From: a virus
Strand: one strand, 5' to 3'
Virus record (IMG/VR): IMGVR_UViG_3300017991_005548
Location: 186,001-250,000 of that record
DNA: 64,000 nucleotides
In this document: positions 10,504-33,836 of the stretch, piece after piece
Position numbering within the stretch: position 1 is the first letter of the stretch
Layout of the letters: each line of letters begins with the position of its first letter
Position numbers and translations under genes: made by a program
Notes under the pieces: model-generated
Database searches by the model: none
The model's input: only the letters and a program-made list of their open reading frames with translations
Told to the model about the DNA's origin: nothing

Positions 10504-10540
10504 AAGAAAACCCCTCCTACGAATGCAGGAGGGGTTCCTA
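10504..10540 (-). terminator. Intrinsic terminator of the tRNA/PTH2 operon
   Basis: The stem AACCCCTCCT / AGGAGGGGTT with a short loop is followed on the minus strand by TTTTCTTTT. It sits directly after the PTH2 stop codon and closes the transcript that starts upstream of the tRNA. Confidence 0.85.
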
Positions 10541-10542
10541 TC

Positions 10543-10875
10543 TTACGCCAGTGGAAATCCTTTAAAGTATTGCTCACCTTGTTCTTTGGTCATCGGATAG
10601 AAGGCTACAGCAGTCCAGCCGAATTCTTCGGGATAGTAAGTGTCATAGAAGAAGCGCATTTTTACGCCATCTTCTTTGGCTTTCTCAACAATGAATTCGG
10701 CTCTTCTTTTCTTAGCCTGAACCATGACCAAAGTCTGATCATAATTCACCCATTGTCCCATCCCTTCGTCCTATCCGTAGTCAAAGGTCAGCTTAGCCAA
10801 AGCATGAGCACCTTGGACTTTTCGCTGATCTCGACTAAGTTCAGATTTCGTCAATACAAAAACACACGTATCCAT
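10543..10875 (-). CDS. Peptidyl-tRNA hydrolase (PTH2 type) with in-frame amber codon
   Basis: From the ATG at 10873-10875 (GGAGG six bases upstream) the frame reads MDTCVFVLTKSELS, then KVQGAHALAKLTFDYG, then TAG (codon 35, bases 10771-10773). It continues in the same frame DEGMGQWVNYDQTLV...KAKEDGVKMRFFYD...GWTAVAFYP to TAA. Together these give 110 residues, the length of a PTH2 domain. The N-part holds the first strand and the KxxxQxAHA-type helix, and the C-part holds the remaining strands. PTH2 enzymes release peptides from peptidyl-tRNA. Neither half is a complete domain, so full-length product needs amber readthrough, and a tRNA with anticodon CUA lies in the same apparent operon. Alternatives: a broken gene, a sequencing error, or reinitiation at the Met four codons after the TAG. 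Confidence 0.75.
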
Positions 10876-10876
10876 C

Positions 10877-11254
10877 TTAGTCCTCCAATCCAGGAATGGT
10901 TAAATTGTAGTCAGACAGGATCTTCTTAAGCTCTCGAACGGCGAAAGAGTTTTCCCATCGTTCTCCACTAAAATCCGTAAGGAATTCCTGGTCAGACTCA
11001 TAAGAGCCAGTATGGGGGCGATTATGGCGAAGACGATTGTGGATGATATGACAAACAGTGATCCATCCACTACCAGCATAACGATGCTTTTCAAAACCTT
11101 TTTTGAAATCTTCGCGTTGTTCTTTGGAGGATTCGTACTTACCATCGTTCTCAGTAATGTATCCAACGATACAACCTTTGAGATAATCGATAGCTTTTCT
11201 TTGGGCGAGTTCTTCTTCGGACAGGATTGGTTGTTCTTTAACTTCAGTAGTCAT
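10877..11254 (-). CDS. Hypothetical protein in the suppressor-tRNA operon
   Basis: A 125-residue protein with a helical N-terminus (LSEEELAQRKAIDYLKG), a central GSGWITVCHIIHNRLRHN motif with clustered His, and a helical C-terminus. A strong AAGGAG site precedes the ATG. It lies between the tRNA and the PTH2 gene with no terminator on either side, and its stop is one base from the PTH2 start, so all three probably share a transcript. No family is recognised. The His-rich segment could be catalytic or metal-binding. Confidence 0.7.
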   Translation of the reverse strand: MTTEVKEQPILSEEELAQRKAIDYLKGCIVGYITENDGKYESSKEQREDFKKGFEKHRYAGSGWITVCHIIHNRLRHNRPHTGSYESDQEFLTDFSGERWENSFAVRELKKILSDYNLTIPGLED

Positions 11255-11394
11255 TTTTAGTTCTCCTTAATTTGATTTGACTATCTTTCATTACTTCTTT
11301 TGAACGAAAACGATAACCAACTCAAGGAGGACCTCGAATTACCTACGTGAAACCTTTAATTGTAAGAACCTATGTCATACCTTATCCTTTTTTT

Positions 11395-11469
11395 TGGTGC
11401 CCCTGCTGGGACTCGAACCCAGATTAGCAAGGTTAGAGCTTGCCGCTTTTGCCTTTAAGCTACAGAAGC
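11395..11469 (-). tRNA. Suppressor-type tRNA, anticodon CUA
   Basis: Read on the minus strand the 75-base gene folds as a standard class I tRNA. The acceptor stem is GCTTCTG/CAGGGGC with discriminator A and an encoded CCA. U8 and A9 are present. The D arm is GCTT/AAGC with GG in the loop. The anticodon stem GCAAG/CTTGC has loop CTCTAAC, and the T arm is CTGGG/CCCAG with loop TTCGAGT. The anticodon is CTA (11434-11436), which reads UAG. The T arm and the 4-base variable loop argue against a pyrrolysine tRNA. The charged amino acid cannot be determined; the short variable loop excludes bacterial Tyr, Ser and Leu types. Confidence 0.93.
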
Positions 11470-11483
11470 ATCTTCTACAGCCT

Positions 11484-11511
11484 ATTATAACTCATGATTA
11501 CTTGTTGTCAA
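11484..11511 (-). promoter_or_regulatory. Consensus sigma-70 promoter for the tRNA operon
   Basis: On the minus strand TTGACA (11506-11511) and TATAAT (11484-11489) are separated by 16 bases, with the predicted start point about eight bases before the tRNA. It is the best host-type promoter seen in the window, so the tRNA operon is probably transcribed by unmodified host RNA polymerase, possibly early. Confidence 0.8.
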
Positions 11512-14628: not shown

Positions 14629-15016
14629 AATTCCCATCAATACTTTGGATGCAAAGTCCTTAACATTTGGTATGGTGGCTCCAAACGAAACGGCCCAAAC
14701 CAATATCGTACAGCTTTATGTACCAGATGCCGCCGCAATTACCAATATTCGACTTGCATTAATCGATACTGGAGGTATAATGTTTGGATCTACTACTTTT
14801 GGAGTAGATAACAGATCGTTTATCGACAATAATGTAGTACCCGAATCATTTTTTCAAGGTGTTAGCGACAAAAGCGTAAATTCGCCTTACAATATATCAG
14901 TAGCAAACCTAAATAGATTAGCCAGTGAGTACATATATCTGAATGTGGATATCCCAATTGGTCAAACTTTTATCGCTGGAACAATAAGATATCAATGGCT
15001 TTTTGACTATGCATAG
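14591..15016 (+). CDS. Small virion-like protein
   Basis: A 141-residue protein, starting at an ATG that follows GAGGTAGAAG and overlapping the previous gene by 38 bases. The sequence alternates strands and turns (TYLIQNRTRIPINTLD, NIVQLYVPDAAAITNIRLALIDTGG, YIYLNVDIPIGQTFIAGTIRYQW) and has few charged residues. This is typical of small baseplate or head-surface proteins. It stops at TAG followed one codon later by TAA. The family is not recognised. Confidence 0.65.
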   Translation: MTPITYLIQNRTRIPINTLDAKSLTFGMVAPNETAQTNIVQLYVPDAAAITNIRLALIDTGGIMFGSTTFGVDNRSFIDNNVVPESFFQGVSDKSVNSPYNISVANLNRLASEYIYLNVDIPIGQTFIAGTIRYQWLFDYA

Positions 15017-15023
15017 GGGTAAT

Positions 15024-17030
15024 ATGAGAGTACAAATACAACCAACAAAAGACGAACAAGAGCTTTTTGAACTATTAAGGAATACAGTTAAGAAAGTGGC
15101 CCCTGGAACTTCATTAAGAGTTGCAGGCGGGTGGGTTCGTGACAATCTTCTAGGGAAGAAGTCAAATGACATTGATTTCATGGTTGACAACATGTCTGGA
15201 GAGCAAATTGCTCGATTAATCACAAATGAGCTTGGTCTAAGTGGACCCCATGTTGTTCAAGCAAACCCAGATGCCTCCAAACATTTGGAAACCGCTGGAG
15301 CAGAAATCCCCATATCAAATGGCAAGGTGTTTGATCTTGATTTTGCCATCGCAAGACAAGAAATTTACCATGATGACTCAAGAATTCCTGAGATCAAACC
15401 AGCGACTCCAGAAGAAGACGCTTTCAGAAGGGATTTGACCATTAATTCTATGTTCTACAATATTATGACTGGAGAACTGGAAGATTTCACTGGAAGAGGA
15501 ATGGAAGATCTTAAGAGTAGAACAATTAAAACTCCTGAAGACCCACTGAAAACATTCAAAGATGACCCTTTAAGAATTTTCAGAACTATTCGTTTCGCTT
15601 CAAGGTACAATGGTAATATTGACCCAGAAACACTTTCTGCTATGAATAATCCAGAATTACATAGCGAAATTAGAGAAAAAGTGTCAAAAGAGAGGATTCA
15701 AGAGGAACTCTTCAAAACAATGAAGGGACCAAATCCTCTGATGGCCATCAATTTGCTGAAAGAAACTGGCATATTCAGAGACATCATAGAAGATGCTGTC
15801 AAAGGTAGTAAATTTGAAGGAAAAATCGCTCCACTTGACATGGAGCAGAACAATCCTCATCATGAGCTAACGGTTTGGGGTCACACCCTAAAAGTTGTCG
15901 AAAATCTGTTGATGTACTATCCAGACACAGATCCTGAGAAACGTGCTATCATGATCCTAACAGCGGTTATGCATGATTTAGGGAAGCTTTATTACGACAT
16001 TCATGTCGATAAGGGGGATCAAACTTCTTACTATGGACATGCAGACGCTAGTGGTGAAATTGCTGAGATGATTATGCGTTACTTGAAGTTTAATAACAAA
16101 ATGATTGATCAAGTCTCCAAGATGTCAAAGCATCATATGAGAGTTCACTTGGTTGAAAATGACAAAAACTTAAGTGGCGAAGGAAAACGTTTGGCATTTT
16201 TCAGAAAATTTATTAGAAAGATGCTGGCTGAAGGTATCGATGCGATGGACATAATGAATCTTTCTATTGCTGATGCTTATAGCAAAGGTCACAAAATTGT
16301 TGATCCTTCAGTAGTTAAAAACTATCAACTTTTAAAAACTCAACTTGAGCAGGCTTTGGCTTCAATAAGTGTTGACCAAAATCAAAAGAAAGTTGTCCCA
16401 GTGTTGAATGGACGAGAAATTATGACTATTCTAAACATTAATCCTGGGTGCATGGTTGGTGATGCGACTAGATTTGTTTATGAGTTAATGGATGAGAATC
16501 CTAAAATCACCAAAGATGAGGCCGCAGAAAGATTAGTTGAAGAGTTCGCACACAAAATTGACAACGAAGAAAAAATTAGGCAAGCTTCTGCATGTCCAAA
16601 GCATCTTCTGTTTAGCAAGATTGATGAAATAAAAGAAGCGATTAATGATGAGAATTGTGACAGAGCAATTACAATTATGACCACTCTCAAGAAAGAGAAT
16701 GAAGATGACGAAAGTGTATATGCAGAAATTGCGAACCGTATGCTTGATGTCTTGCTTATAGACCGTTCGAAAAGGAACTTTGAACTTCTAGGTTATGTAT
16801 TTGACAAAGCAATAGATAACTTCTTTGATGTAGAAGTTTGCATACCTGTTCTTGGAATCTTGTTACTCTTAAAGACAGGTACAAAAGAAGAGCATATAGA
16901 AACATTATGTGAAAGAATGAAGAACATGGCGAATGATAAATTACAAGTCATGTTAAAGAAATTACCTGATGATGCTTATCATAAGAAATTCATAAAAAGG
17001 TTAAAGAATGGAAGATGTAACTGCAAATGA
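15024..17030 (+). CDS. cca: CCA-adding-type tRNA nucleotidyltransferase / poly(A) polymerase with HD domain
   Basis: About 668 residues. The Pol-beta head has the class II signature RVAGGWVRDNLLG...NDIDFMV (about 32-54; the DID aspartates bind metal). It is followed by RRDLTINSMFYNIMTGELEDFTGRGMEDL and DPLRIFRTIRFASRY, the neck region that recognises tRNA. An HD hydrolase domain follows (HHELTVWGHTLKVVENLL, then MHDLGKLYYD near 315). An extra C-terminal segment of about 200 residues is not part of the family. The enzyme adds or repairs 3' CCA on tRNA. The phage tRNA already encodes CCA, so repair of host or phage tRNA ends is a likely use. I chose the start at 15024, after AGGGGTAAT. Confidence 0.9.
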   Translation: MRVQIQPTKDEQELFELLRNTVKKVAPGTSLRVAGGWVRDNLLGKKSNDIDFMVDNMSGEQIARLITNELGLSGPHVVQANPDASKHLETAGAEIPISNGKVFDLDFAIARQEIYHDDSRIPEIKPATPEEDAFRRDLTINSMFYNIMTGELEDFTGRGMEDLKSRTIKTPEDPLKTFKDDPLRIFRTIRFASRYNGNIDPETLSAMNNPELHSEIREKVSKERIQEELFKTMKGPNPLMAINLLKETGIFRDIIEDAVKGSKFEGKIAPLDMEQNNPHHELTVWGHTLKVVENLLMYYPDTDPEKRAIMILTAVMHDLGKLYYDIHVDKGDQTSYYGHADASGEIAEMIMRYLKFNNKMIDQVSKMSKHHMRVHLVENDKNLSGEGKRLAFFRKFIRKMLAEGIDAMDIMNLSIADAYSKGHKIVDPSVVKNYQLLKTQLEQALASISVDQNQKKVVPVLNGREIMTILNINPGCMVGDATRFVYELMDENPKITKDEAAERLVEEFAHKIDNEEKIRQASACPKHLLFSKIDEIKEAINDENCDRAITIMTTLKKENEDDESVYAEIANRMLDVLLIDRSKRNFELLGYVFDKAIDNFFDVEVCIPVLGILLLLKTGTKEEHIETLCERMKNMANDKLQVMLKKLPDDAYHKKFIKRLKNGRCNCK

Positions 17031-19432: not shown

Positions 19433-20383
19433 TTATGGATTTACTTCTAGCCCCATTCTTGCATATTCTTCTAGATTTATCGCTGGATTTGAGGCTTTGA
19501 CTTTTACAAAAGTCGAATGGTCACATTCTTTCCACAAATCTTCTCTATCCTCTCCCCCTTCAAAGATTATCATATCATAATCTATGTGTGCGGGAGTCAT
19601 CCACTCTCCATTATGCCAAATCTGGAAATCCACATCTGCATCTCTATATTGGTTCAACTTGTTGATATGGACTTCTGCATAAAGGAAATCTGGTGGTTTT
19701 TCAATTTTTAATGTATATTTATTATAGCCTGCTGGGACTATCCAAGGGTTTTGGAAAACAAAATACAAATCTTTTGAAACTTTTAACAAATCACCTCTTT
19801 GTTGAACCCAATTCCCCTTTTCATACCAATTCTTATTTTGAGAGAATGAAACAATTCCCCTTCTAACAACATTTTGCTTATCCTTATATGTCCCATAATA
19901 TCCTGATTTAGCAATGGGACTGTAAAAAGTCAGATGACTTCCATCGGCCTCCACTTGTCTTCGAGCGTTATTAAAGGCTCTAACTTCTTCATCTTCCTCT
20001 TCTTCAATAGGATCAGCTTCTTGAGGAGCGTTCGGATCAGCTTCTTGAGGAGCGTTCGGATCAGCTTCTTGAGGAGCGTTCGGATCTATCCCTGCCAGAA
20101 GTTGAGCATTTCGTTCTCTCTCCAATAATTCAAAAAGATCATCTGGTTCATCTATGTCTGGAATTTTCATTTTTCCATCTTTCAACGCATCGTCTATTTG
20201 TTCTGGAGTTAGAGGTTTTTTATAACCTTTTATCTTCCCTTGTTTATCAAGTACTGGTTGCCTTTCTTCTTGCGTCCAGCCTATTTCTTTTAGCCTATTC
20301 TGATATTCTTTACATTCTATATAGTCTGCTCTTTGAGCCTCTTTAAGAAAAGAATAAAATTCAAATTGCTTGTACCAACTCAT
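19433..20383 (-). CDS. Tagged protein with DPNAPQEA repeats
   Basis: A 316-residue protein starting MSWYKQFEFYSFLKEAQRA, a longer version of the MNWYKKAQ tag. A helical N-terminal part is followed by three DPNAPQEA repeats and an acidic linker (about 98-135). A C-terminal beta-rich domain (about 150-316) contains GYYGTYKDKQNVVRRGIVSF and YTLKIEKPPDFLYAEVHI. The repeat linker probably separates two independent domains. The function is unknown. It is co-oriented with two other tagged genes immediately upstream and downstream. Confidence 0.7.
   Translation of the reverse strand: MSWYKQFEFYSFLKEAQRADYIECKEYQNRLKEIGWTQEERQPVLDKQGKIKGYKKPLTPEQIDDALKDGKMKIPDIDEPDDLFELLERERNAQLLAGIDPNAPQEADPNAPQEADPNAPQEADPIEEEEDEEVRAFNNARRQVEADGSHLTFYSPIAKSGYYGTYKDKQNVVRRGIVSFSQNKNWYEKGNWVQQRGDLLKVSKDLYFVFQNPWIVPAGYNKYTLKIEKPPDFLYAEVHINKLNQYRDADVDFQIWHNGEWMTPAHIDYDMIIFEGGEDREDLWKECDHSTFVKVKASNPAINLEEYARMGLEVNP
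20011..20082 (-). repeat. Three tandem 24-bp repeats (DPNAPQEA)
   Basis: Three identical 24-base units in frame inside 19433-20383, encoding an acidic, proline-containing linker. The perfect DNA identity indicates recent expansion or gene conversion. Confidence 0.9.
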
Positions 20384-20399
20384 AGAATCTCCTAAAAAC

Positions 20400-20807
20400 T
20401 TATAACATCATTAAATCACTAAAATCTGTATCTTCTCTTTCAGGTGGGTTACAAAGTTCCTCAAGCTGTTCTACAGAAAGGCTTGGCTTAATATTGTCAA
20501 GTCCTCTGAACTCAACAACTTGATCGGTCCCCTTGTTTTTAAGAACTATGGCGTAAAGATCTCCACTAATGAAGTAAACGGATATATCATTTCTAGCAAG
20601 ATATTCTCTGGCATAAGATTCTGACTGGACACTCCAACCACCTTCTTGACCCAGTTCCATTAGTCTTTTTACACCTGTAACATCTTCTTTCGTAAAATTG
20701 AAGTTTCTGTTTGCAGTTTTTAGCCAACCAGATTTCTGACCCATGACCAACCACTCTTTTTTAGACATTTGAACTGTTGTCTTTCCAGCTTTTCTAACTA
20801 GTTTCAT
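20400..20807 (-). CDS. Tagged small protein with KKAGW cassette
   Basis: A 135-residue protein. MKLVRKAGKTTV, then QMSKKEWLVMGQKSGWLKTANRN (residues 13-35), then FTKEDVTGVKRLMELGQEGG, a small mixed domain (SVYFISGDLYAIVLKNKG) and an acidic tail. The first 35 residues are a copy of the cassette in 17613 and 24815, and a K-T-A-N motif closes it. This layout suggests a removable N-terminal targeting unit. The cargo domain (about 36-135) is not recognised. Confidence 0.7.
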   Translation of the reverse strand: MKLVRKAGKTTVQMSKKEWLVMGQKSGWLKTANRNFNFTKEDVTGVKRLMELGQEGGWSVQSESYAREYLARNDISVYFISGDLYAIVLKNKGTDQVVEFRGLDNIKPSLSVEQLEELCNPPEREDTDFSDLMML

Positions 20808-31200: not shown

Positions 31201-33836
31201 TTGGTTGATGCTTCTTTAGTTTCTTTCTTCTCTTCTTTTTCTTCGCATTCTTCATCCTCTTCGTCACACTCTTCTTCTCCAGCGACAGCTTGCTTCAGAG
31301 CATTTCTAAGTTCGTCCTTAACGTTAACTTTTGCTACTGTAGAGGCTTCAGCAAGTTTTTCATCAACTTTCTTACTGATACTCTGTTCACCAAGTTCGCC
31401 ATCTGAGAGAACATCAACAGCATCAATAATAGTATCTGGATTAATAGTGTCATCAGATGCAATTACTCTCAACTTGTTAACAAGACAGTGTTCGACTTCA
31501 GTTGGGGAAGCAGTTGCAACTTTTACGTTTTTGGCGTTCCAATAGGATGATCGCTTCGAAAAAGAAGCAGATTCAGAAGATTGAGGTTCTTCTAACAAAG
31601 ATCCTGCTAATCTTACACGTTCCTTAGTGGTTGCAACGCAGTTGTTCGCAATTTCTTGCAATTCTTGTGGGGTTGCTCCAGTTTCAAGGGAAACCTCTGC
31701 AAACGCTTCAACGACAGCATCCATGTGTTCCTTAGCGGACTTAAATAGAGATGCATCTCTGTTGGCCTGACGTGCCCATGCAGGATCGACATTGTCTAAC
31801 TGCTTCTGGGTGATTACTTCAGGCTCATTGTTGGTACGATAGCCTTCACTATCCAATTGTTTTTGGGTGACAGTATGTTTGTCCTCATCCTTACGGGGAG
31901 ATACACCATTACTATCATTATCCAATTGTTTTTGGGTAATGACTTCAGGTTCGTCATCCTGTCTGGGGTTCAGCTTCAACTCGCTGTCATCCAACTGTTT
32001 CTCAGTGATAACTTCTTTTTCACCTTTTCTTGGACTCGCGTTATCATTGCTGTCCAGTTGTTTTTGTGTGATGACCTGCTGTTCTTCCCCAGTGCGACCG
32101 TGATACAACTCGGATCTGTGATCTTCGAGTTGTTTCTGAGTGATCACTTCTGGAGTTGCAAGAACGGTATTGGCACCAGCCTCTTTAGTTTCTTTACTCA
32201 TTCTTTCTACTCCTTCTCTTGGATTTGTTTTGGCGAATAAATCTAAAAATTGATGAGCCGCTACTTTTGGCGACTCACTGATTAAATTCTTATCTTGATC
32301 TGACAGATCGTCATAGGTCCAAATTTGCATTCTGTCAGAGTTAGTGTCCTCCGCGACGATGATAAATGAATCGTCTCTATTTTTCACTGCGAGTTTTAAA
32401 TTACCAATTTGCATTGATGGTACTTCTTTTATATACTCAAAAAAGCTTTGTTTTTCCTGCCACGAGTCAGATAAAACTTGCATAGCTTTTTCACGTTGTT
32501 TTTCTTTACTAGCTACGGTTCGTCTTTTTCCCATAGATTTAACTCCCGTTTTATTCATTTTATCGCACAGACTCGCGGCCTTTTGCAAAACAGAAGCTCC
32601 GAACTCATAATGATCTACGGCCTCATCTGCGACTCTCCTAATTAAATGTGAACTCTGGGCGGCTGGACGCATAGGTGCGGTAATAGGCATCTGCGGTGTA
32701 TTTACTGGAGGTTGCCCTGGCGCTCCAGTTGTCGTTCCAACTTCCATCGCTTGTTCTGAAGCAACTGGCATTGGTGCGGCATCTCTTGGAGCCGTTTCCA
32801 ATCCCCCTCCTGGTGTTGGTGGTACTTCCCCTGTTGGAGGCATACCTTCTTCTGGAGCGTTACCCTCGGTTCCAGGAACCTGAGATTCAACACTTCCATA
32901 TCCAGCCCCTACTAATTCATCTGACCAAGTTTGTAGACTAGCAATAATATCTACTAAATCACTTGCAAATTCAACTTCAACTTGTTGTCGGTTCTTAATC
33001 AAGTTAACAGCAATGTTCTCTAATGTTTCAAGAACCTGATTAATCTGATCAATTTCTTCCTGACTTGCATTTTTCTCAAGTGCCGCAGTCTTAATCATTC
33101 TAAGGTAATTCTCAACATTGGCAACTCTTGCAAGATAATCATCGTTTGGAATTATACCTTCAATATGGCAACTTGGGCAAGCAGGATCAACAACTCCACT
33201 TAACTCAATAAACTTGATCCCATAATTATGTTCAAATACTGGTTCGTCTTTGAATTCCTTCACTTCGCCAGTTCTAACGTTTCTGGCCCTACCAGTAAAT
33301 TTTCTGCTCTTTCTATTTCTAATATGTTCGCAGTAATCTTCAGTTCTCTCAGCTTTGTTTTCGCAAATACTGCAAGTACTGTATTCAACTGAAGCACCCA
33401 TGGAGACTCCAGTCATATATCCTTGTTCAATACCGCGACAAATATGAGGATAAGCATCTCTATCTACAAAAGCTATTGTATAAACAGCATTATCATCTTC
33501 GTTCCATTCGGCCCAGATGATCTTACCTTTAGCCTTTTCTATATCTTGATTTTCATGATTGGTAAAGAAAGGGACACCTTCGAAACTCTTATAAGCTTTA
33601 AGCAATTCTTCTTTCGAAAATGAATCACCATTACTATTAGGTTCGTCAGCTTTGATTGCTTTAGCCCTGAAAAATAAAGCATTTGGATGCTTTGTAATTT
33701 CTGCTTGAACAATCTTTTCTTTCTCTGAACCAGGCTCTATCAAAACTCTGCCAGAGGCAGTTTTAATCATAACCTCGTCTTCCTTAGAAATTTGCTCTAC
33801 AGGACAAGGTTCGGTTAAAGCAACTTTTATTAACAT
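28266..33836 (-). CDS. Prohead protease fused to a giant repeat-rich C-terminal region
   Basis: 1856 residues. Residues about 1-240 are a gp21/U9-type prohead protease with the herpesvirus-protease fold: RAKAIKADEPNSNGDSFSKEEL, FFTNHEN (catalytic His candidate, about 97), YMTGVSMGASVEYS (catalytic Ser about 145), with a zinc-like CSIC...CEH insertion and PACPSCHIEG. The protease normally matures the head from inside. The rest, normally absent, has Gly/Pro linkers, six ITQKQLD repeats (562-682), Glu-rich helices, three zinc-ribbon-like clusters (CPECG about 1103, CPACG about 1197, CPEC about 1255), a duplicated 111-residue unit (1538-1725) and many K-x-A sites (IKTAALEK, LKTAQ, LRTAS, VKTAS, VKTAG). 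It may be a protease-scaffold polyprotein that is cut at those sites. Confidence 0.8.
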   Translation of the reverse strand: MLIKVALTEPCPVEQISKEDEVMIKTASGRVLIEPGSEKEKIVQAEITKHPNALFFRAKAIKADEPNSNGDSFSKEELLKAYKSFEGVPFFTNHENQDIEKAKGKIIWAEWNEDDNAVYTIAFVDRDAYPHICRGIEQGYMTGVSMGASVEYSTCSICENKAERTEDYCEHIRNRKSRKFTGRARNVRTGEVKEFKDEPVFEHNYGIKFIELSGVVDPACPSCHIEGIIPNDDYLARVANVENYLRMIKTAALEKNASQEEIDQINQVLETLENIAVNLIKNRQQVEVEFASDLVDIIASLQTWSDELVGAGYGSVESQVPGTEGNAPEEGMPPTGEVPPTPGGGLETAPRDAAPMPVASEQAMEVGTTTGAPGQPPVNTPQMPITAPMRPAAQSSHLIRRVADEAVDHYEFGASVLQKAASLCDKMNKTGVKSMGKRRTVASKEKQREKAMQVLSDSWQEKQSFFEYIKEVPSMQIGNLKLAVKNRDDSFIIVAEDTNSDRMQIWTYDDLSDQDKNLISESPKVAAHQFLDLFAKTNPREGVERMSKETKEAGANTVLATPEVITQKQLEDHRSELYHGRTGEEQQVITQKQLDSNDNASPRKGEKEVITEKQLDDSELKLNPRQDDEPEVITQKQLDNDSNGVSPRKDEDKHTVTQKQLDSEGYRTNNEPEVITQKQLDNVDPAWARQANRDASLFKSAKEHMDAVVEAFAEVSLETGATPQELQEIANNCVATTKERVRLAGSLLEEPQSSESASFSKRSSYWNAKNVKVATASPTEVEHCLVNKLRVIASDDTINPDTIIDAVDVLSDGELGEQSISKKVDEKLAEASTVAKVNVKDELRNALKQAVAGEEECDEEDEECEEKEEKKETKEASTKAVVKNEKAKRDAEREEILASLESRKRVQAQEEILNPEKLDGADIVIETDFEELGSQKTSATFKKDIVKFAKGALATENMKLASITNVTIDGNTIQIAVQTDAGEESVEIPIGEEVAPIEEEIVPEGDLVGEGIEDGLDADIEMENLNQVAYNNKKMKRTAQSPMGGGMPGAAGEVAAPGAPEEGLDAPPMGEDPALQALTTGNEDELEDEIPTVGEKQAPWSICPECGSSDVDVTKEDDGGIIGNCQNCGAEYEALIKKEIEFRIIKPTKSVGEEGMEDVEGPEEPEEMPALPVAAQTRIDKDSIVRIAANREAHGDVCPACGNKKCDVIASGDGRTKCECGQCGTSFEKNLIVSSKNPSNGLLRVEWDLSPDNSCPECKEEARKFASKLKVVGMLKTAQANADTFPTANCVERIARTYGGNTVARFGPCKDKPLAECVCKELKRLGFTKVRQMKKLADTLMQVDPMDECIEDQKSKGHDVVQATSICNCIKKKFAKEESDNIYVQAFADEAKEGKIALSQYDLATMNELFIQKEENLAKKAQAILEEVEIGDDLEPLDSVDVEVDEIIEEPEEVAVESVTITGDNLEVVENTGDEALEEDIAEDVAFEAEEVPEGEDMETFDTDALAEALAMNSSRVRRSGAESNIKLAGKPKLIKTIEKDVEAGVPRSKATMMNEGADNIDVPMAKPQVPRSNATMGHEGADNINPPAGLPDVAVDSSYMGIEKATQSDMPAINNEIKGTVIAEAEKNLKEAQRQLALAKKMKEVDTVEGDVEAGVPRADASLGHEGADNIDVKMANPDVPRAKATMGQEGPDNIDVNAPKPDVPIDNAYMGVEKETQSDMPGINDKYLKQVQQKREEQLARIKEARKEEALRTASWLAANNRIASDKSTFDNVVTALAQFEVDKIASVAETMFPVKAVKTASTEQQVKTAGTGLPAIVIQSQPAQEPSFQDKIAGAFTIGSKLLNDNLIDNDQR
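28650..29225 (-). repeat. Duplicated 333-bp (111-residue) unit
   Basis: Two in-frame units 333 bases apart encode DVEAGVPR..AT/AS..EGADNIDV..., each with two VPRxxATxGxEGxDNI motifs, and end in YMGxEKxTQSDMPxIN. Divergence at the DNA level is moderate, so the duplication is older than the perfect 18- and 24-bp arrays. Confidence 0.8.
31788..32152 (-). repeat. Six ITQKQLD peptide repeats
   Basis: Six copies of (I/V)T(Q/E)KQL(D/E), spaced about 18-26 residues apart and separated by polar spacers, lie within the protease polyprotein. Related repeats occur at the N-terminus of the protein at 53105-54037. Confidence 0.85.

Follow-up and report, generated by a model that had tools for sequence, protein, structure and literature searches.

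A locus on the minus strand of the window, the 64,000-nucleotide stretch of virus DNA analysed here, raises the question of why a phage would interrupt the gene for a peptidyl-tRNA hydrolase of the PTH2 family with an in-frame amber codon while placing a tRNA with the matching anticodon on the same strand nearby. The window comes from an IMG/VR contig of 296 kb, which shares sequence with a second contig of 476 kb; joined, the two represent a phage genome of 508 kb or more that encodes a tmRNA, a CCA-adding enzyme and about 60 tRNAs. The tmRNA lies at 192972-193352 of record G001 and the tRNA nucleotidyltransferase at 15009-17030 (+) of the window (PHROG E 8e-54); together they make up a large phage translation toolkit.

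On the minus strand, a promoter is followed by a tRNA(CUA), a 125-residue open reading frame, the PTH2 frame with its TAG and a terminator (Table 1). This is the arrangement that a first-pass annotation, made from the letters alone, had described. Our scans recovered its consensus promoter, its well-formed tRNA, its 125-residue gene, the GGAGG, ATG and codon-35 TAG of the PTH2 gene and the intrinsic terminator behind it. Its further statement that no terminator lies in between holds only in part and is uncertain, because the terminator scan lists a weak stem between the tRNA and the 125-residue gene; the tRNA, this gene and PTH2 are probably co-transcribed. Perfect promoter sites are rare in intergenic DNA of this phage, with only 2 in 508 kb, one of them here, and about 0-0.6 expected. 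As the promoter ahead of the tRNA is of the consensus host type, the earlier idea of an effect late in infection is not supported.

Table 1. Features of the tRNA-PTH2 locus, in window coordinates
Feature	Position	Strand	Basis or remark
Promoter TTGACA-N16-TATAAT, consensus sigma-70 type	11484..11511	-	12/12 positions match
Suppressor tRNA, anticodon CUA, A73, CCA encoded	11395..11469	-	ARAGORN; Rfam RF00005, 62 bits
Weak terminator-like stem in leader	11318..11341	-	Scan; between tRNA and 125-residue gene
125-residue protein ORF	10877..11254	-	ORF call
GGAGG Shine-Dalgarno site of PTH2	10882..10886	-	Overlaps 3' end of 125-residue gene
PTH2 ORF, 110 codons, ATG at 10875	10543..10875	-	TAG at codon 35
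PTH2 codons 1-34, strand 1 and helix 1, conserved Q21 and H24	10774..10875	-	Alignments A1, A3
In-frame TAG, codon 35, variable loop between helix 1 and strand 2	10771..10773	-	
Possible internal ATG restart, AGGA 7 nt upstream	10759..10761	-	Shine-Dalgarno energy -4.1
PTH2 codons 36-110 and TAA stop, conserved W42, T88, P94	10543..10770	-	Alignments, Pfam PTH2
Intrinsic terminator, strong, 14-bp stem	10507..10538	-	Terminator scan

The tRNA has a predicted canonical cloverleaf fold, and it is the only one with a CTA anticodon among the roughly 60 tRNAs of G001. Its closest phage tRNA is Arg(UCU), identical at 55 of 75 positions. A73 and U35 would presumably suit charging with lysine; a search for a phage synthetase of the Lys/Asp/Asn class that could charge it gave sub-threshold matches only. 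It lies 520 nt from the PTH2 gene. The 125-residue protein has no credible family in Pfam, PHROGs or NCBIfam and no relative in IMG/VR or INPHARED, and as far as the relatives of the locus show, its gene is outside the conserved tRNA-PTH2 pair. In the leader of this gene (11235-11394, -), the weak stem could alternatively pair with the Shine-Dalgarno site of the gene, CCTCCTT with AAGGAG; the z-score of such a fold is only -1.1, which is not significant, and a sequestering function is not supported.

Read through the TAG, the frame appears to encode a single PTH2 domain, as the first-pass annotation had proposed. The readthrough product matches Pfam PTH2 (PF01981) over residues 14-109 with E 1.6e-4 and 22.3 bits, just under the curated cut-off of 23, in a class whose short phage members score 17 to 41 bits; against PHROG families it reaches E 9e-7. 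The C-terminal half taken alone gives a weak Pfam match (E 0.015) and has a coding score of 12.4, and an early codon-score screen did not detect the 34-codon N-terminal half. A profile built from the phage relatives recovers solved Pth2 enzymes (2zv3, 1xty), and Q21, H24, T88, P94 and L109 are invariant in alignment A3, so that family residues flank the TAG on both sides. The pairing energy of its Shine-Dalgarno site, -9.3, is within the strongest 14% of the genome. The frame is unchanged past the TAG, which speaks against a +1 frameshift of the prfB type at this gene. A hairpin after the TAG (13 bp, z -2.8) was considered as a stimulatory element and rejected, being equalled by 11% of genic windows, and a single-sequence AlphaFold model of the protein (pLDDT 44) was unusable. 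The same phage carries a second, longer and intact PTH2 paralogue (G001:C1:74371-74724, -; 43 bits) with neither an in-frame stop nor a suppressor tRNA nearby.

Comparison with other phages shows that the interruption is not peculiar to this locus. IMG/VR and INPHARED hold no close relatives of the locus itself by protein, tRNA pattern or flanking genes, and the terminase relatives of this phage are fragments without it. With the RF1-like gene of the phage as bait, 80 viral loci were gathered, and a PTH2 search of 41 of these records revealed a short class of the gene, in most cases with a CTA or TTA tRNA beside it according to ARAGORN. A profile built on this class (A3) enlarged the set and tblastn added cultured phages. 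The same short PTH2 was found in 35 other phage records. In 29 of them, an in-frame stop stands at codons 3-9, directly before the domain (28 UAG, 1 UAA), or in 26 of 32 once near-duplicates are removed (G057 and G059 with G025, G066 with G038). The counted records include two kin groups, XbC2, GAP32 and pEa_SNUABM_47, and LR756502, LR756504 and LR745206. Start codons of the relatives are as we read them from the sequence. So read, the residues before TAG are MT in G025, G057, G059, G041, G049, LR756504 and Acinetobacter phage ME3; MS in G051 and LR756501; ML in G083 and Salmonella phage Arash; MK in G018; MI in G040; MTH in G030, LR756511 and Erwinia phage pEa_SNUABM_47; MAH in Xanthomonas phage XbC2; MAQ in Cronobacter phage GAP32; MKS in G023; MNN in LR745206; MKN in LR756502; MPDT in G013; MGFS in G015; ..GFT in G014; ..DKT in G038 and G066; MKAAL in G026; and MKLQLEGL in G039. 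G035 reads MA before TAA.

The commonest start is thus ATG-X-TAG, with example Shine-Dalgarno energies of -10.3, -9.3 and -7.6; a site is absent in G049 and G025. Because they begin in this way or similarly, the short PTH2 genes look truncated. The gene is unannotated in pEa_SNUABM_47, and in GAP32 its start has been called at an internal codon. Searching 1,191 open frames of these phages for the loose pattern of an ATG and a stop followed by no start returned 42 cases, of which 10 are PTH2. The window differs from its relatives in having the stop at codon 35 rather than near the start; in LR756501 and G015, the loop that joins helix 1 to strand 2 holds a second TAG, and it is in this loop that the TAG of the window lies. 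No clear early stop is seen in six records, namely G050, G069, RaK2 and XacN1, together with G045 and Myrna, both ambiguous in that a start is possible after the TAG. In XacN1 the PTH2 domain is fused to another open reading frame. The first-pass annotation had named relatives with the same tRNA and no amber in PTH2 as evidence against its proposal; XacN1, with CUA tRNAs and a stop-free PTH2, is in part such a case, set against the early stop in most of the records.

The short PTH2 gene is accompanied by a suppressor tRNA far more often than chance would give. In 12 of 22 IMG/VR records (G013, G015, G018, G025, G035, G040, G041, G045, G049, G051, G057 and G059; TTA in G035 and G045), a CTA or TTA tRNA on the same strand is found no further than 1.7 kb from PTH2, and often at a distance of 30-100 nt. 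The chance expectation is about 1-2% per record, at roughly one such tRNA per 150-600 kb genome. In G041, the tRNA stands 94 nt from PTH2 and is the only CTA among 38 tRNAs in 208 kb. In G035, the TAA-blocked gene adjoins a tRNA with the TTA anticodon (UUA), which matches its stop. Looser linkage is seen in pEa_SNUABM_47 (3.3 kb, the only CTA among 31 tRNAs), XbC2 (3.4 kb), GAP32 (2.8 kb, annotated Sup-tRNA) and LR756511 (8 kb). Several records, for example G026, G038 and G083, have the stop and no suppressor tRNA within the 3-20 kb examined. The linked tRNAs differ widely in sequence; it is therefore the reading of the stop that is conserved, and not a single tRNA lineage. As a control, 10 of 11 long PTH2 loci have neither an early stop nor a suppressor tRNA close by. 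The exception, L167 (G048), is a longer PTH2 with M-F-TAG upstream, a CTA tRNA 114 nt upstream and a later ATG. In Myrna (NC_011273), a tRNA annotated as Ser at 33522-33593, just after the PTH2 gene, is read by ARAGORN as CTA, and the PTH2 start comes after GTG-TAG.

What can be read directly from the DNA is the tRNA, the blocked frame, the PTH2 domain past the block, their recurrent linkage and the match of stop and anticodon. On these grounds, synthesis of the short PTH2 is very probably gated by a suppressor tRNA, in a cassette conserved among phages, and the first-pass claim that full-length enzyme would depend on the neighbouring tRNA is strongly backed by the relatives, most of which have the early stop and many a CTA or TTA tRNA beside the gene. 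PTH2 appears to be the gene that such suppressor tRNAs specifically target. We propose the following sequence of events. When the charged suppressor tRNA is lacking, the ribosome would terminate, usually after 2-8 residues (34 in the window), and no enzyme would be made; when it is present, the stop would be read and PTH2 completed. As completion would require suppression, PTH2 expression would thus be a readout of suppressor activity. The putative enzyme would then cleave peptidyl-tRNA to which the suppressor tRNA gives rise, either by early drop-off or by mis-reading; this would recycle the tRNA and limit the damage that suppression does to the many genes still ending in UAG. Feedback of PTH2 on suppressor activity, most likely as it seems, is the least certain step. 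Peptides of 2-8 residues are at the stage of frequent peptidyl-tRNA drop-off, where Pth is needed (PMC10192219). Most early stops would leave a peptide of just this length, which suggests that PTH2 acts on products of the same process.

The release factor of the phage may form the other side of this balance. An RF1-type gene (G000:C1, about 20200-20800, -; outside the window), with the PxT motif PPT and GGQ, encodes a homologue without domain 1. Its frame changes at CTT-TAG-C: the frame-0 part matches RF1 with E 1.5e-8, the +1 part scores 191 bits and the fused product 233 bits. This is a +1 site of the RF2 kind, as in prfB, that uses RF1's own codon. Of the 80 viral mini-RF1 loci, a set to which that of this phage belongs, 24 have a frame change, in every case by +1 at a CTT-stop site (TGA 19, TAG 4, TAA 1), with GGAGG just upstream in many. 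A bacterial survey found such frameshifting in prfB and not in prfA, with a motif that lacks TAG (PMC12421855). LR756511.1 (L074) apparently has two successive +1 sites at 545-700, CTT-TAA-C and then CTT-TGA-C. In L075-L078 and in 34 of the 80 loci (L080-L158) there are in-frame stops, nearly all TGA, and these genes apparently come from phages that recode UGA. Synthesis of the RF1 of our phage would hinge on decoding of UAG, as that of PTH2 would, so termination and suppression would be opposing, self-monitoring arms. The full scheme, in which a suppressor tRNA regulates itself by gating, via the stop that it reads, a hydrolase of peptidyl-(suppressor-)tRNA with RF1 as the opposing arm, is a tentative one, to which we give slightly under an even chance.

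The alternative that survives best accepts the cassette and the gating step, and holds that the gate serves timing or simple recycling and not feedback. In the timing version, PTH2 is wanted only after phage tRNAs replace the host supply, and PTH2 does sit among phage tRNA genes in several phages. However, timing would not need a stop codon, and the tRNA of the window has its own host-type promoter; we consider this reading possible, though rather unlikely.

Self-regulating gating also has to be weighed against a split gene, in which translation of an N-terminal peptide ends at UAG and begins anew for the C-terminal half at the ATG at 10761, whose AGGA overlaps the stop, and the two chains assemble into one PTH2 domain. 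The break does fall in a loop, and TAGGAG-N6-ATG, present here with identical spacing, is a normal gene boundary in this genome; most of the other strong in-frame TAG cases are junctions of this very kind. Yet the Shine-Dalgarno energy at the restart is weaker than that of about 77% of genes and is reached by 22% of random internal in-frame ATGs, and the restart methionine would stand where a hydrophobic residue is usual, three positions ahead of the conserved Trp. Moreover, in the 29 relatives the stop follows the start so closely that splitting the protein there would be senseless. A split gene is thus improbable.

Recoding of UAG throughout the genome, as in Lak or crAss-like phages, would make PTH2 one recoded gene of many, and the CUA tRNA is of the sort that recoded phages use (PMC10879173). 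The stops of 587 called genes are TAA in 338, TGA in 163 and TAG in 86 (15%). In-frame stops flanked on each side by coding signal number 38 for TAA, 8 for TGA and 6 for TAG, with no excess of TAG over its usage. The TAG of the terminase gene is conserved in relatives of 75% identity, and the sequence past it is not. From these counts and the terminase, UAG is a normal stop in this phage. Genes that end in TAG have no unusual downstream stops; G015 and G041, too, use UAG to end genes in the ordinary way (35 of 174 genes and 22 of 203, respectively); and the phage encodes an RF1-type factor that should read UAG. With UAG neither rare as a terminator nor frequent in frame, as code 15 would have it, genome-wide recoding is extremely improbable. 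The first-pass annotation had counted at least eight other TAG-ended genes in the window, where about 10 are called, and had suggested that their products may gain readthrough tails; these same results lend no support to such tails in general. Finally, a pseudogene or sequencing error beside an unrelated tRNA, for which the intact second PTH2 might be cited, is extremely improbable, as both overlapping assemblies (263,896 b shared, 8 mismatches) carry the TAG, which is therefore not a single-assembly error, PTH2 has no other defect and 29 further records have a stop of like kind, in many cases close to a tRNA that matches it.

Gene-specific suppression of a stop in phages of standard code, tied to a peptidyl-tRNA hydrolase, would give the suppressor tRNAs of jumbo phages, previously without known targets, a specific and conserved target that gene finders miss. 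The cassette also occurs in cultured phages, and so can be tested at once there and by reporters in E. coli. In the literature covered on phage suppressor tRNAs together with peptidyl-tRNA hydrolases, a coverage that leaves out preprints and most subscription papers, the cassette is not described. XacN1 and Atu_ph07 (PMC5852040, PMC6102473) are likewise large phages that combine a rich set of tRNAs with a suppressor tRNA and a PTH. The authors of the XacN1 study sought a target gene for its CUA tRNAs and could identify none (PMC5852040); the short PTH2 domain of XacN1, unlike that of the window, is free of a stop.

Two-codon minigenes of phage lambda (bar) cause peptidyl-tRNA drop-off. AUG-X-stop, the layout of these minigenes, is likewise the commonest start of the PTH2 genes; here, however, a long enzyme gene continues in frame. 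With the PTH2 family (PF01981; 2zv3, 1xty), the window protein shares the domain signature and the conserved Q, H and T residues, but it belongs to a short divergent phage class in which several usual residues are changed, and is best called a putative hydrolase. In prfB (RF2), too, an early stop makes the product depend on its decoding by an autogenous logic (PMC12421855), whereas in PTH2 no frameshift is involved, it is a suppressor tRNA that competes to decode the stop, and the gene encodes something other than a release factor. In code-15 phages, such as Lak and crAss-like phages (PMC9523058, PMC10879173), a phage suppressor tRNA likewise decodes a stop within the frame of a phage gene. 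There, the stop is reassigned genome-wide, whereas here it is gene-specific and UAG terminates elsewhere. The parts, suppressor tRNA and PTH2, are already known; we call the cassette a categorically new kind because phage-wide reassignment of a stop, which of the known kinds comes nearest, was tested for and does not describe this phage.
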